Shown here: positions 4,179-8,669 of the stretch, in pieces
Position numbering within the stretch: the first letter of the stretch is position 1
Layout of the letters: every line of letters starts with the position of its first letter
Source of the DNA: a bacterium
GTDB taxonomy: Bacteria; ARS69
Assembly (NCBI GenBank): GCA_025774865.1
Contig: JALGZO010000482.1
Coordinates: forward strand, 1-8,669
Length of the DNA: 8,669 nucleotides
Reading direction: 5' to 3'
Program-made: the position numbers and the translations under genes
Notes under the pieces: model-generated
What the model was told of the DNA's origin: nothing
What the model saw: the letters and a program-made list of their open reading frames with translations, nothing else
Databases searched by the model: none

Positions 4179-5420
4179 TCAGGGGAGTCCCAGCTTCTCC
4201 CGTAGCCCCGCCGCCCACTCACTGTGCGGATCGAACTTCAGGTAGATGCGAGCGTGCCGCTTCGCCTCCTGGCGGCGACCGGCACCGTGGTAAGCCTCGG
4301 CCAGGTTGTAGTGCGCATCGGGGTAGTCGTAGTTGAGATCGGCGGCGCGACAACCGGACTCGATCGCCTTCGTCCAGTTCTCGAGCTCGGCGTGAACGCT
4401 CGCCAGGTTGTTCCACGCCTCCACGTACTTCGGATCGACCGCGAGCGCCTCCTCGAAGCGCTCGATCGCCTCCGGCTTGCGCCCGAGCGCGAACAGGACG
4501 TTGCCGAGGTTGAATGCGATCTCCGCGGACTCGCCACCGGCCTCCAGAGCGGTCGCGTAGGCCTCGGCCGCTTCCTCGAGGTTCCCCTCTTCCTCCAGCT
4601 CGACCGCGACCTCGAAGCGTTCCGCGGCGGACAGGTCGATCGCGGGCTCGTCGGCGACCGGCTCCAGCGAGATCTCCGCGTCGGCGATCGCGTCCTCGAC
4701 CGTCGCCGCGACCGTCGTCGGGTCCGCCGCGTCCGACTCGTCGAAGTCGAGCCGCAACTGACCCGAGGGCTCCGTGAGCTGCCCCTCGACGCGTACGAGA
4801 ATCTGCGGATCACCTTCCAACGTCGAAAGCCGCGCGAGGGAACGCTCGGCCTCCGGGAGCCAGCGCTTCAGTTGCTCGAGGCTCTTGCGGATTTCCTCGA
4901 CCGTGACGCCACCCTCCGTGAGCTCGCGCAGCATCTTGAGTTCCGTCATCTGACGGAAGTCGAAGTAGTCGAGACGGTGCACCGTGCGGACGGGTCGGAT
5001 CAGCCCGCGACGAACCCAGGAGCGGATCCGCCGACCGGGCACCTTCAGGATGCGGCTGAGCTGGGCGGTCGTGTAGAGGCGCTGGAAGTCGGCGCCGTCG
5101 CCTTGGTCGTCGAGCGGGAGCATCTCGAGGAATCGTCGCTCGCTGATGACTTCGACGGCGCAGCCTTCGTCTTGAAGCCGCTTCGCCTTTTCGAGCCCCT
5201 CGGGCACGCGGTCCTTGTCGCGGAAAGGCCAGGCTTCCTCGCCCACGACCACGATTGACGTCTTCTTGCTGGGAGCGCGCGCGAGGTCGCCGCCGAGCCG
5301 GCGGATCCAAACGCCGGCCTGGTCGCGCGTCATCGACGCGAGCCGCCCCGTGATCGCGACCTGCTTGCCGCGAAGCAACTGACGTGGGCGACCCCGCTTC
5401 TCGAGACCGGCTCGAACCAT
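4179..5420 (-). CDS. BRCT - MerR-type HTH - TPR fusion protein, last gene of the ku-ligase operon
   Basis: A 413-aa soluble protein with three recognisable parts. Residues about 14-101 form a BRCT domain: GKQVAITGRL, then LGGDL (Gly43/Gly44), TSIVVVGEE, and an end (VISERRFLEML) resembling the BRCT of NAD-dependent ligases. Residues about 115-187 resemble a MerR-type winged helix: YTTAQLSRILKVPGRRIRSW, RGLIRPVR, then FRQMTELKMLRELTEGGVT. After an acidic linker (about 200-262), residues 264-400 contain three to four TPR units, for example FNLGNVLFALGRKPEAIERF and AWNNLASVHAELENWTKAIE. The start is ATG 5420 with a purine-rich GGGGAAAGAGAA just before it. Only 16 bases separate it from the ligase stop, so it is very probably co-transcribed with ku and the ligase. 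BRCT domains usually bind phosphopeptides, DNA ends or other BRCTs; MerR-like domains bind DNA; TPRs bind proteins. A role as regulator or scaffold of end-joining is inference. I see no metal-binding cysteine set of classical MerR sensors. Confidence 0.88.
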   Translation of the reverse strand: MVRAGLEKRGRPRQLLRGKQVAITGRLASMTRDQAGVWIRRLGGDLARAPSKKTSIVVVGEEAWPFRDKDRVPEGLEKAKRLQDEGCAVEVISERRFLEMLPLDDQGDGADFQRLYTTAQLSRILKVPGRRIRSWVRRGLIRPVRTVHRLDYFDFRQMTELKMLRELTEGGVTVEEIRKSLEQLKRWLPEAERSLARLSTLEGDPQILVRVEGQLTEPSGQLRLDFDESDAADPTTVAATVEDAIADAEISLEPVADEPAIDLSAAERFEVAVELEEEGNLEEAAEAYATALEAGGESAEIAFNLGNVLFALGRKPEAIERFEEALAVDPKYVEAWNNLASVHAELENWTKAIESGCRAADLNYDYPDAHYNLAEAYHGAGRRQEAKRHARIYLKFDPHSEWAAGLREKLGLP

Positions 5421-5436: not shown

Positions 5437-6360
5437 CTATCCCCGCATCCACTCCACGAAGACCGGGGCTCTGAGCTCCCCGCTCTCGGTTCGTTCCAGG
5501 AAGTCTACCGTGCAATACAGGCCGGGCTCTACCCACAACGCTCGAAGACTACACGGAACGATCGGCTCGGGCCGTGTGATTTCGCGAAGCACTTGGTTCA
5601 GCTCGGGGCGCGTGACGACATCCAGCCCGCTCCCGACCTTGCCGGCGAAGGTCAGCTCCCCGTCGTCCTCCACCGCGATCACCAGACTCTTGATGTCGCG
5701 GTCCCCCTCCGGCAGAAAGCCGAGGATCGCACAATAGGTCCGCTGCCGTCGCTTGATCTTCAGCCAGGAGTCGGATCGCTTGCCGGGAATGTAGCGGCTC
5801 CCGAGCCGCTTCGCCATGACGCCCTCGAGCTCGCGGCTCACTGCTTCCCGGTAGAACGTGAGCCCGTCCCCCACGATCCCCTCCGAGAAGACGAGGTGCG
5901 CGTCGGGACAGGTTGCGAGAACCTCCTGGAGCGCCTCGCGCCGCTCGGTGAGCGACCAATCGACGACCGGCTCGCCGTCGCGGTACAGAAGATCGAAGAC
6001 GACGTACGTGGCCGGGAGCTGGCGCGCGAGCTCCCGGACCCGCCGCTCGCCGCTGGCTTGCTCGCGCCGGAGCATGCCCGAGACGACGGGCTTGCCGTCC
6101 TTCATGACGCAGATTTCGCCGTCCAGGACCGTCCCGGGCGGAAGCCTCCGCAGGAAATCGAGCTCCGGGTATCGTTCCTTGGCCGGCCGTCGCCTGCGGT
6201 TGAGCAGGCGGTAGTCGCCGTTCTCCGCGAGTGTGATCGCGCGGGTGCCATCCCACTTGATCTCGAAGAGGTGATCCTCGGAGGAGAAGGGCTCGCGTCC
6301 GATCTTCGCGAGCATGGGCGACACGAAGTCGGGGAGAGGCTTTGTCGGCCTTTCCGTCAC
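5437..6360 (-). CDS. Stand-alone ATP-dependent DNA ligase of the NHEJ (LigD ligase-domain) type
   Basis: A 307-aa ligase that should seal nicks and Ku-bound ends. The nucleotidyltransferase core (about residues 12-205) has all motifs. Motif I is FEIKWDGTR with catalytic Lys35, which would carry AMP. The acidic motif LDGEI supplies Glu82, and FDLLY supplies Phe122. Motif IV is ELEGVMAK with Glu179 and Lys184, and motif V is WLKIK with Lys201 and Lys203. An OB-fold follows (about 206-305; AILGFLPEG, LTFAGKVGSGLD, and LRAPVFVEW near the end). Length and order match the ligase module of LigD without polymerase or phosphoesterase domains. The start is GTG 6360, overlapping the ku stop by 4 nt (GTGA), so the two are translationally coupled. 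The neighbouring LigD-type protein (7366 onward) has a degraded ligase module, so this gene is likely to be the sealing enzyme of the locus. LigC-type naming is possible; I give no symbol. Confidence 0.94.
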   Translation of the reverse strand: MTERPTKPLPDFVSPMLAKIGREPFSSEDHLFEIKWDGTRAITLAENGDYRLLNRRRRPAKERYPELDFLRRLPPGTVLDGEICVMKDGKPVVSGMLRREQASGERRVRELARQLPATYVVFDLLYRDGEPVVDWSLTERREALQEVLATCPDAHLVFSEGIVGDGLTFYREAVSRELEGVMAKRLGSRYIPGKRSDSWLKIKRRQRTYCAILGFLPEGDRDIKSLVIAVEDDGELTFAGKVGSGLDVVTRPELNQVLREITRPEPIVPCSLRALWVEPGLYCTVDFLERTESGELRAPVFVEWMRG

Positions 6361-7256
6361 CCGCTCTTCTTCTTGCGCGCCGGCTTGGCCTTCGCGCTCG
6401 GCGCCATCTTCGTCTTGACCTTGGCCTTCTTCGCCGCGGCCTTCTTGGCGGCCGGCTTCGCCCCGCCGCCACCCGCGCGCGCGTTCTCGACGCTCGCCTT
6501 TAGAGCGTCCATGAGATTGATGATCTTCGGCTCCTCGGGTTCGGGCGCGGCGACGATCTCCTTGCCATCCACCTTCAGCTCGATGAGCTCCGTCATCTCC
6601 GCCACGTAGGGATCCTGAAACTCGGCGAAATTGAAGTCCTTGATGAGGGAAGCGTCGATCAGGGTCTTGGTCAACGCCGCTTCTTCCTTCGTGATCTTCG
6701 ACTCCTTGAGCTCGCTGTCGAACTCCGATGCCTGCTTCAGCTTCGCGTGGTAAATGAGGACCGTCATGCCGAGGAGATCGCCGACCGGGCGGACCACCAC
6801 GACCTGCTGCCGCCCGGAGAGAATCGCGGTGCCGACCGCGTACAGCTCTTCCTTCTCCATGGCGTCACGGAGGAGCTGGTAGGGCTTGTGACCCGCCGGT
6901 CCGTCCGGCACGAGGTAGTAAGTCTTGCCGGAGAAGTACATCGGATCGATGTCGTCGGGCGAGATGAAGCCGCGGACGTCGACCGACTTGTCGGACTCCT
7001 GGCGAATCTTCGCGATCTCGTCGGGGTCGATGACGACGTACTGGTCCTTCGCGAACTCGTAACCGGAGACGATCTCGTCGTTCGCGATCTCACCGTGGGT
7101 CGGGCAGATCTTCTGGTACTTGACGCGGCTGTTGCACTCCGAGTGGAGCTGGTTGAGCCGGATCTCCTTGCTCGTCTGCGTCGCCGTGAAGGCCTTGACC
7201 GGCACCGAAACCAGGCTGAGGCGCAGAAAGCCCTTGAAGCTCGATCTCGGGGGCAT
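6357..7256 (-). CDS. ku: Prokaryotic Ku, DNA double-strand-break end-binding protein
   Basis: A 299-aa bacterial Ku. Homodimeric Ku threads onto broken DNA ends, protects them and recruits LigD-type enzymes. The N-terminus (FKGFLRLSLVSVPVKAF) is the usual Ku opening, in place of the common W-G-x-I-x-F-G-L version. The core also shows VKYQKICPTHGE, GYEFAKDQYVVIDPDE, the ring-forming region with YYLVPDG, YQLLRDAMEK and VGTAILSGRQQVVVVRPV, and the helical end with ELIDASLIK-like and PEEPKIINLMDALKASVE segments. From about residue 262 the tail is rich in Lys, Ala and Pro, like the basic DNA-binding C-terminal extensions of some bacterial Ku proteins. The start is ATG 7256 with AAAGGAG six bases upstream. 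It is the first gene of the ku-ligase-BRCT/MerR/TPR operon and is divergent from the ligD-type gene. Confidence 0.96.
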   Translation of the reverse strand: MPPRSSFKGFLRLSLVSVPVKAFTATQTSKEIRLNQLHSECNSRVKYQKICPTHGEIANDEIVSGYEFAKDQYVVIDPDEIAKIRQESDKSVDVRGFISPDDIDPMYFSGKTYYLVPDGPAGHKPYQLLRDAMEKEELYAVGTAILSGRQQVVVVRPVGDLLGMTVLIYHAKLKQASEFDSELKESKITKEEAALTKTLIDASLIKDFNFAEFQDPYVAEMTELIELKVDGKEIVAAPEPEEPKIINLMDALKASVENARAGGGGAKPAAKKAAAKKAKVKTKMAPSAKAKPARKKKSG

Positions 7257-7365
7257 GACGGGCTCCTTTCGAAAGTCGGGCTATCGTATCATACCGAGAC
7301 AGCAAGCCTGCACTCCCCGACGATGACGGTCAAGCCAGGTAACTCGCCTCCGGATAAAGGGTTCG
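7257..7365. promoter_or_regulatory. Divergent intergenic region between ku operon and ligD-type gene
   Basis: This 109-bp gap must hold promoters for both halves of the NHEJ locus. It is the most AT-containing stretch nearby. At 7286-7294 lies GTATCATAC, a perfect 4-1-4 dyad that presents TATCAT on the plus strand and TATGAT on the minus strand, each one mismatch from a -10 hexamer. No good -35 lies at the right distance on either strand. GTCGGG (7275-7280) and CCCGAC (7316-7321) form a further six-base inverted repeat flanking it. These are candidate promoter or operator elements only; short dyads arise by chance. Confidence 0.4.
7263..7269 (-). promoter_or_regulatory. Shine-Dalgarno of ku, inside a perfect palindrome
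   Basis: Read on the minus strand this is AAAGGAG, six bases before the ku ATG, and it fixes the ku start. It partly overlaps the ten-base perfect palindrome CTTTCGAAAG at 7266-7275. A protein bound there, or base pairing in the leader, could affect ku translation or transcription, but the palindrome is short. Confidence 0.75.
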
Positions 7366-8669
7366 ATGGCCAAGAAGAGACTCTCGATCGACGAATACCG
7401 GGCGAAGCGCGACTTCGGCAAGACGCCGGAACCGGATGCAAAGAAGGCGACGCCGGCCGCGGACGAGACGCACGCCGGTCGCTTCGTCATTCACCGACAC
7501 GAAGCTCGCCGCCTCCACTACGACTTGCGCCTCGAGATGGAGGGCGTCTTGAAGTCCTTCGCCGTTCCGAAGGGCTTCTCGTGGGTTCCGGAAGACAAGC
7601 ACCTCGCGGTGCGCACCGAGGACCATCCGATCGAGTACCTCGAGTTCGACGGTGTCATTCCCAAGGGCGAATACGGCGCCGGCACCATGACGATCTGGGA
7701 CTCGGGCCGCTACGAGCTCCGCAACGGCGACGGACTCGTGGGGCTGGACGAAGGGAAGCTCGAGATCGTCCTGGCGGGTGGCCGGCTTCGCGGCCAGTGG
7801 GACATGGTGAAGACCTCGCAGGGCGAGAACGACTGGCTCATCTTCAAGGTCCGCGATCGCTACGCGCGGGCGGAGGGCGAGTCGGTCTTTCCTCTCGACT
7901 TGTCACGAGCAGCGACCTGTGAGCTGTCCGATCCGAGGGCGGTCATGCGCCCGGCGGAAACGGTCCCGCCGTTCTCGGACCCCGACTGGCTCTTCGAGCT
8001 GACGTTCGCCGGCAAGCGGCTCCGCCCCGCGGTTCGGGGTGACGACGTGCGCTTCTTCGATGCGACGGGGAAGGTGTTCCGCGCCGAGCTGCCGGAGATC
8101 GCCCGCGACCTGCGTCGCCTTCGCGCGGGGACTGCTCTCTTGGACGGCGTCGTAGTCGCGCACGACGCTCACGAGCGTCCCGACCGCGAGCTTCTCGAGA
8201 AGCGGCTCGCCACCAAGGACACGGCGGAGCTCGTCTACTACGCCTTCGACCTGCTGCACTTCGAGAACTGGGATCTCGCCGGCTTCCCGCTCCTGGATCG
8301 GAAGCGCTCGCTGCATTCGATCGTACCGACGCTGCCGTGCATTCTCTACGTGGACCATGTGGTGGGACGGGGCGAAGAGCTCTGCGAGATGGTGGAGCGC
8401 GGTGGCCTCCCGGGCGCCATCGCGAAGCGCGGCGGCTCCGTTTACACCGCGGGGCCGTCGGGCGACTGGCGTGAGATCCCGTCGGGCGGGGGCGGCGGGC
8501 GCAAGAAGAAGAGCGTGACCGAGAGTCTCGGTTCCGGGGGAGGGCGGCGGGCCGCCTCCAGGGTGAAGATCACGAATCGGAACAAGGTCTACTGGCCGAA
8601 GGAAGGGATCACGAAGGGCGAGCTTCTCGACTACTACGACCGCGTCGCGGAAGTGATCCTCCCGTACTT
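7366..8669 (+). CDS. ligD: LigD-type NHEJ protein: 3'-phosphoesterase, degenerate ligase domain, start of polymerase domain (partial)
   Basis: The first 434 codons of a gene running off the right edge. Residues about 38-165 are the LigD 3'-phosphoesterase domain, which trims 3' ends. His45, His51, Asp53, Arg55, His87 and Tyr91 reproduce, with the same spacing, the catalytic set I recall from Pseudomonas LigD (42, 48, 50, 52, 84, 88). Residues about 187-372 align with a ligase core, but motif I reads ELTFAGKR (Lys to Thr213, Asp to Ala215). The metal-site Glu is Val262 (LDGVVV), motif IV has Pro349 for Glu, and motif V reads WREIP instead of WLKIK. No OB-fold follows. A Gly/Lys/Ser-rich linker (about 373-399) leads straight to KITNRNKVYWPKEGITKGEL, the opening of the primase-polymerase domain. 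Domain order is thus PE-(pseudo)ligase-Pol, as in Pseudomonas. The start is ATG 7366 with AAAGGG just upstream; an in-frame stop at 7324-7326 excludes longer versions. It probably works with the Ku and ligase encoded divergently. Confidence 0.92.
   Translation, partial: MAKKRLSIDEYRAKRDFGKTPEPDAKKATPAADETHAGRFVIHRHEARRLHYDLRLEMEGVLKSFAVPKGFSWVPEDKHLAVRTEDHPIEYLEFDGVIPKGEYGAGTMTIWDSGRYELRNGDGLVGLDEGKLEIVLAGGRLRGQWDMVKTSQGENDWLIFKVRDRYARAEGESVFPLDLSRAATCELSDPRAVMRPAETVPPFSDPDWLFELTFAGKRLRPAVRGDDVRFFDATGKVFRAELPEIARDLRRLRAGTALLDGVVVAHDAHERPDRELLEKRLATKDTAELVYYAFDLLHFENWDLAGFPLLDRKRSLHSIVPTLPCILYVDHVVGRGEELCEMVERGGLPGAIAKRGGSVYTAGPSGDWREIPSGGGGGRKKKSVTESLGSGGGRRAASRVKITNRNKVYWPKEGITKGELLDYYDRVAEVILPY

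Follow-up and report, generated by a model that had tools for sequence, protein, structure and literature searches.

Textbook accounts of bacterial NHEJ present LigD as its one-protein tool. The window analyzed here, one whole contig of 8669 bases from a fragmented metagenome-assembled genome (MAG; 4.7 Mb, 785 contigs, 8.3% contamination), encodes a LigD-type protein whose central ligase domain had been predicted, from the DNA letters, to be catalytically dead while lying between intact phosphoesterase and polymerase modules. Such a protein raises the questions of whether the loss is a genuine trait, which protein would seal the break in its place and why the core of a dead ligase would be kept.

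Domain layout and active-site residues

The LigD-type gene (7366-8667, + strand) has an ATG start, a PE - pseudo-LIG - POL order and a reading frame that is open up to the contig edge, where its 3' end is cut. A search of the window's genome (G000) with PF21686 (POL) did not find the missing POL part elsewhere, indicating a gene simply truncated where the contig stops. Pfam recognized LigD_N (1.6e-38) and DNA_ligase_A_M (8e-11, residues 198-365) in the encoded protein. Its 3'-phosphoesterase (PE) domain (7390-7857, + strand; TIGR02777, residues 9-164) carries, by alignment, the catalytic set His45, His51, Asp53, Arg55, His87 and Tyr91, the counterparts in P. aeruginosa being the metal and phosphate residues His42, His48, Asp50, Arg52, His84 and Tyr88 (PMC8656161), and these are retained in every aligned member of the clade described below. 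The pseudo-ligase nucleotidyltransferase (NTase) domain (residues 186-375; 7921-8490, + strand), delimited by Pfam, predicted fold and alignment, is followed by a short linker in place of the ligase OB-fold domain (8491-8562, + strand), as judged from the motif V-to-POL spacing, and by the first ~35 residues of the POL domain (8563-8667, + strand; TIGR02778, residues 400-433). The expectation of intact flanking domains was thus borne out in the window for the residues of PE, whereas the contig ends after the start of POL and the intactness of this domain is visible in the relatives, with DxD present in 27/27 and the sxH region intact. Elsewhere in the window, an ABC transporter ATPase gene (1006-1783, + strand) is seemingly broken, its N-terminal half and Walker B half being out of frame with each other and lacking the intervening ABC signature motif, through a small deletion that is either real or an assembly error.

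Alignment placed Thr213 (8002-8004) at the position of the AMP-accepting lysine (Lys481 in the LigD of M. tuberculosis, Mtb), Ala215 (8008-8010) at the motif I Asp, Val262 (8149-8151) at the motif III Glu (Mtb Glu530), Pro349 (8410-8412) at the motif IV Glu (Mtb Glu613) and Glu370 and Pro372 (8473-8481) at the motif V lysines (Mtb Lys635 and Lys637), all on the + strand. These are the six substitutions originally predicted, each at the residue then named, and the corresponding columns hold K, D, E, E, K and K/R almost without exception in 64-66 intact LigDs. Column comparison added two active-site arginines to the original list, replaced in the window by Ala233 (8062-8064, + strand; motif Ia, Mtb Arg501) and Pro364 (8455-8457, + strand; Mtb Arg629) and gone in most clade members. 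Equivalence with Mtb residues was assigned by order and motif context, and a profile alignment to 1VS0 directly shows the Lys and Glu positions. The active site of Mtb LigD comprises Lys481 (the nucleophile), Arg501, Glu530, Glu613, Arg629, Lys635 and Lys637 (reviewed in PMC8656161), and either Glu613Ala or Lys637Ala abolishes sealing (PMC8656161). Because the lost columns match these residues, the loss, as read from the alignment, hits the active site, while the structural columns Trp208, Glu211, Gly216, Gly261, Tyr292, Asp295, Leu309, Arg312, Lys313, His331 and Gly336 remain. Across the clade (n = 28) no member has K213, E262, E349, K370 or K372 (0/28), so that, judged by sequence, the lysine nucleophile for adenylation is absent throughout.

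Relatives and the missing OB fold

Relatives were collected by a scan of genome contigs (21 members) and a whole-genome search (one, L003, of the same family), and a 392-genome Planctomycetota sample added five more (L164, L165, L170-L172), for a total of 28 members including the window. The 27 relatives are 44-59% identical to the window protein, and below the first 22 of them there is a steep fall in identity, ordinary LigDs reaching about 42% at most. The closest homologs do not have intact ligase motifs, all 27 sharing the losses seen in the window. Members occur in Planctomycetota, Acidobacteriota, Krumholzibacteriota, Eisenbacteria and Spirochaetia, and in the window's own phylum the gene was present in two of the five genomes sampled. 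In a tree restricted to PE and POL, the 22 full-length members then known formed one side of a branch with an SH-aLRT of 100; the dead domain is fixed in this monophyletic lineage, the kind of conserved clade for which the original prediction had suggested a test. The motif I lysine is universal in ATP ligases, which makes its loss derived, and a single loss suffices on the PE+POL tree. The pseudo-ligase LigD lineage is ancient and spans several phyla.

One part of the original prediction, that the central domain aligns end to end with ligase cores, did not stand, as only the NTase half is there and the OB fold is gone. The spacing between motif V and POL is 25-39 residues in the clade versus 136-183 in ordinary LigDs, and the OB fold was absent in 22/22 full-length relatives measured. 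In a ligase, holding nicked DNA and capping the ATP pocket are tasks of the OB domain (PMC8656161), so the pseudo-LigD would be doubly disabled as a ligase. Intermediates that had lost the OB fold and kept the Lys, or the reverse, were not found among 392 Planctomycetota and 396 Acidobacteriota genomes, in which matches were bimodal, being either full-length (634-763 bits) or partial and mostly POL-only (331 bits or less). One candidate intermediate (L181, genome G808) was rejected as an intact-type Acidobacteriota LigD with PE and LIG-POL split by a frameshift. A Planctomycetota relative (L173, genome G414), with its pseudo-ligase and POL parts split between two frames, is likely to be a clade member that is decaying or was misassembled.

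Ku, the linked ligase and a fourth gene

A 109-bp intergenic region (7257-7365) separates the LigD-type gene from a divergent gene for Ku with a Lys-rich C-terminal tail (6357-7256, - strand; TIGR02772, 1.5e-73). The end of the Ku gene overlaps a gene for a stand-alone ATP-dependent DNA ligase (NTase + OB; 5437-6360, - strand) in which the catalytic motifs are all intact. Ku was found in 22 of the 23 clade genomes searched whole and a separate ATP ligase in 23/23, directly after Ku and on the same strand in 21/23, and all 22 aligned separate ligases have KWDG, DGE, EGxxAK and the motif V lysines; an intact LigD fusion was not found in any of these 23 genomes. All 25 control genomes with an intact LigD also contain Ku, which lies beside a stand-alone ligase in at most two of them. 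This difference in adjacency corresponds to a Fisher p of about 4e-9, a value that overstates independence because the controls are mostly Bacteroidota and interrelated and both samples contain related genomes. The Ku-ligase pair was also near the pseudo-LigD in four of the five added genomes (L223-L226), and in G505 the contig ends. The arrangement fits the proposal that a separate ligase does the chemistry. The Ku, ligase and pseudo-LigD distances are mutually correlated (r 0.83-0.92), which may reflect just common descent.

A BRCT-MerR-TPR fusion gene (4179-5420, - strand) follows 16 bp after the ligase gene. Homologs occupy the same position after the ligase in 15 clade genomes including the window's, with the BRCT part matched in ten and the others being MerR-TPR or partial, and none was found in the Acidobacteria subclade (B). 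Remoter MerR-TPR genes (27-32% identity) also lie near some intact LigDs. A literature search for a described BRCT-MerR-TPR protein returned nothing relevant, and the protein is possibly an unrecognized NHEJ regulator or scaffold.

Possible roles of the retained core

An AlphaFold2 model of window residues 186-400, made with 23 clade rows, had a pLDDT of 88.9, and its best matches were mycobacterial LigD ligase domains (Foldseek E about 1e-13). In the superposition suggested with the original prediction, the NTase fold matched these domains (PDB 1VS0, 6NHX and 6NHZ) with Z 24 (24.3 for 6NHZ by VIA-align) and an rmsd of 2.0 Å over 186 residues. The matches stop near model residue 190, where the NTase domain ends, and the clade profile matches 1VS0 at 5e-23. 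The dead domain is predicted still to fold as a ligase NTase core, although it differs from the mycobacterial domains in its 24-25% identity, in having no equivalents of Lys481, Glu530, Glu613, Lys635 and Lys637 and in the absence of the OB domain. A full-length model of one member (L031) was weak, with a pTM of 0.50 and a poor PE region, and its domain packing is too uncertain to read.

Among close Acidobacteria members, the dead domain had pairwise dN/dS values (Nei-Gojobori) of 0.19-0.33 in 14/15 pairs and of 0.48 in the closest pair, for which dS is very low; the corresponding ranges were 0.03-0.07 in PE and 0.04-0.09 in POL. Purifying selection on the dead domain, for which a test had been suggested with the original prediction, is relaxed but real, about four-fold weaker than that on PE and POL. 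Conservation peculiar to the clade, and not shared by ordinary LigDs, includes Arg271 (28/28) and two stretches flanking motif III, LRAE ahead of it and RPS behind it. The domain combines the features of a pseudoenzyme, namely a predicted retained fold, lost catalytic residues and retention under selection.

We consider it fairly probable that the protein is a PE-POL end-processing enzyme with a pseudo-ligase docking or spacer domain, and that the Ku-linked ligase seals in trans. Ku would bind the double-strand break, PE would trim the 3' ends and POL would fill in or add nucleotides. The central domain, given the loss of the motif I Lys, the metal-site Glu, the motif V Lys and the OB fold, would be unable to seal, having neither adenylation chemistry nor an OB fold for nicked DNA. 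Its NTase core would serve as a folded docking or spacer module that positions PE and POL and is probably in contact with Ku or the partner ligase, and the intact ligase encoded directly after Ku would seal the nick. Docking on Ku is suggested by analogy with M. tuberculosis, in which Ku binds LigD LIG directly with a KD of 81 nM (53 nM for POL) through a contact called 'likely not associated with ligation' (PMC9638933); a core retained for a Ku contact of this type would resemble the pseudo-ligase core. A DNA-binding role is less likely in view of the lost OB fold and of an acidic shift of the domain, whose mean net charge is -7.3 versus about +2 in intact high-GC LigDs (p 1.5e-4, relatedness ignored). 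Most members have a strongly acidic domain (as low as -16). In the Acidobacteria subclade the NTase domain of the Ku-linked ligases is basic, which would allow a possible electrostatic complementarity with the acidic pseudo-ligase.

The relaxed selection would also fit a mere relic tether, a partnerless folded spacer kept since its removal would disturb PE or POL. We regard this as possible but rather unlikely: the roughly four-fold weaker selection on the domain speaks for it, as does the occurrence elsewhere of PE-POL proteins with just a ~70-residue linker, but Arg271, LRAE and RPS would be needless in a passive spacer and the fold is retained in every member over several phyla. The same PE-POL proteins, found in Acidobacteriota without a ligase domain (L210 and L213), indicate that PE and POL can do without such a spacer, which also counts against a docking or spacer function. 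Another counterpoint to docking is that the equivalents of the Mtb LigD adenine contacts Glu479 and Lys618 (PMC8656161) are kept as Glu211 (28/28) and Lys/Arg354 (28/28), so that some nucleotide binding could persist. A sensor with a pocket for non-covalently bound adenosine nucleotides, gating POL or PE, would account for these residues and for Arg218 (Mtb Arg486) in 20/28 members. We nevertheless find such a sensor improbable, as the phosphate and metal ligands are lost, subclade B has mostly Asn at Phe294 and lacks Arg218, and the kept Glu/Lys pair is possibly a structural salt bridge.

Some pseudoenzymes have migrated catalytic residues (PMC10211241), but ligation by this domain through a substitute lysine is very improbable. 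Lys313, the sole invariant Lys of the domain, belongs to none of the known motifs and is just as conserved in intact ligases, leaving no clade-specific invariant Lys for the role; the OB fold is absent, and no member retains either metal-site Glu or motif V. Sequencing error or pseudogene decay in one MAG, for which the fragmentation, contamination and second damaged-looking gene noted above might speak, is refuted, as the losses recur in 27 other, independent genomes with open frames and dN/dS well below 1, in keeping with the original argument against simple gene decay.

The preferred combination of a PE-POL enzyme, a pseudo-ligase docking domain and a trans-acting ligase departs from each of the known systems to which it can be compared. 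The P. aeruginosa-type LigD (PE-LIG-POL) has the same domain order and PE and POL active-site residues and is likewise encoded with Ku, but the clade proteins are shorter (about 650-720 versus about 800-860 aa), their LIG is devoid of catalytic residues and OB fold, and their Ku is paired with a separate ligase. The latter resembles LigC-type stand-alone ligases in its ~300-aa NTase+OB architecture and LigD-like motifs; mycobacterial LigC complexes act in base excision repair (PMC5663958), whereas the clade ligase sits directly after Ku and has a genomic link to it. Split systems with LIG, POL and PE on separate proteins ('nonconventional NHEJ', PMC7719229) also keep ligation apart from end processing, but here the dead ligase core stays inside the PE-POL protein. 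The ~560-aa Acidobacteriota proteins L210 (genome G551) and L213 (genome G902) are PE-POL fusions that share with the clade the absence of an active ligase but have the linker alone and no NTase fold. They represent a second route of ligation loss from LigD. A search of the open-access literature, with subscription papers mostly outside its scope, found no described LigD with a dead ligase domain.

In the window and in the remaining copies of subclade A the dead domain passes the Pfam ligase cut-off, and NHEJ surveys based on domain presence (e.g. PMC7719229) would score the less diverged members as ligase-positive and may misjudge which protein ligates. A bolder extension, which we regard as possible but rather unlikely, is that one cassette encodes a multi-subunit end-joining machine composed of Ku, the trans-acting ligase, the (BRCT-)MerR-TPR protein and PE-pseudoligase-POL, with the dead core as the docking platform that couples end processing to the ligase and the BRCT-MerR-TPR protein as a damage-responsive regulator or scaffold. 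If this were true, the four-part cassette would parallel the division of labor in eukaryotic NHEJ. The lineage allows a direct test of whether the ligase core has non-catalytic roles, such as Ku contact or domain spacing, that would be masked in catalytic LigDs.
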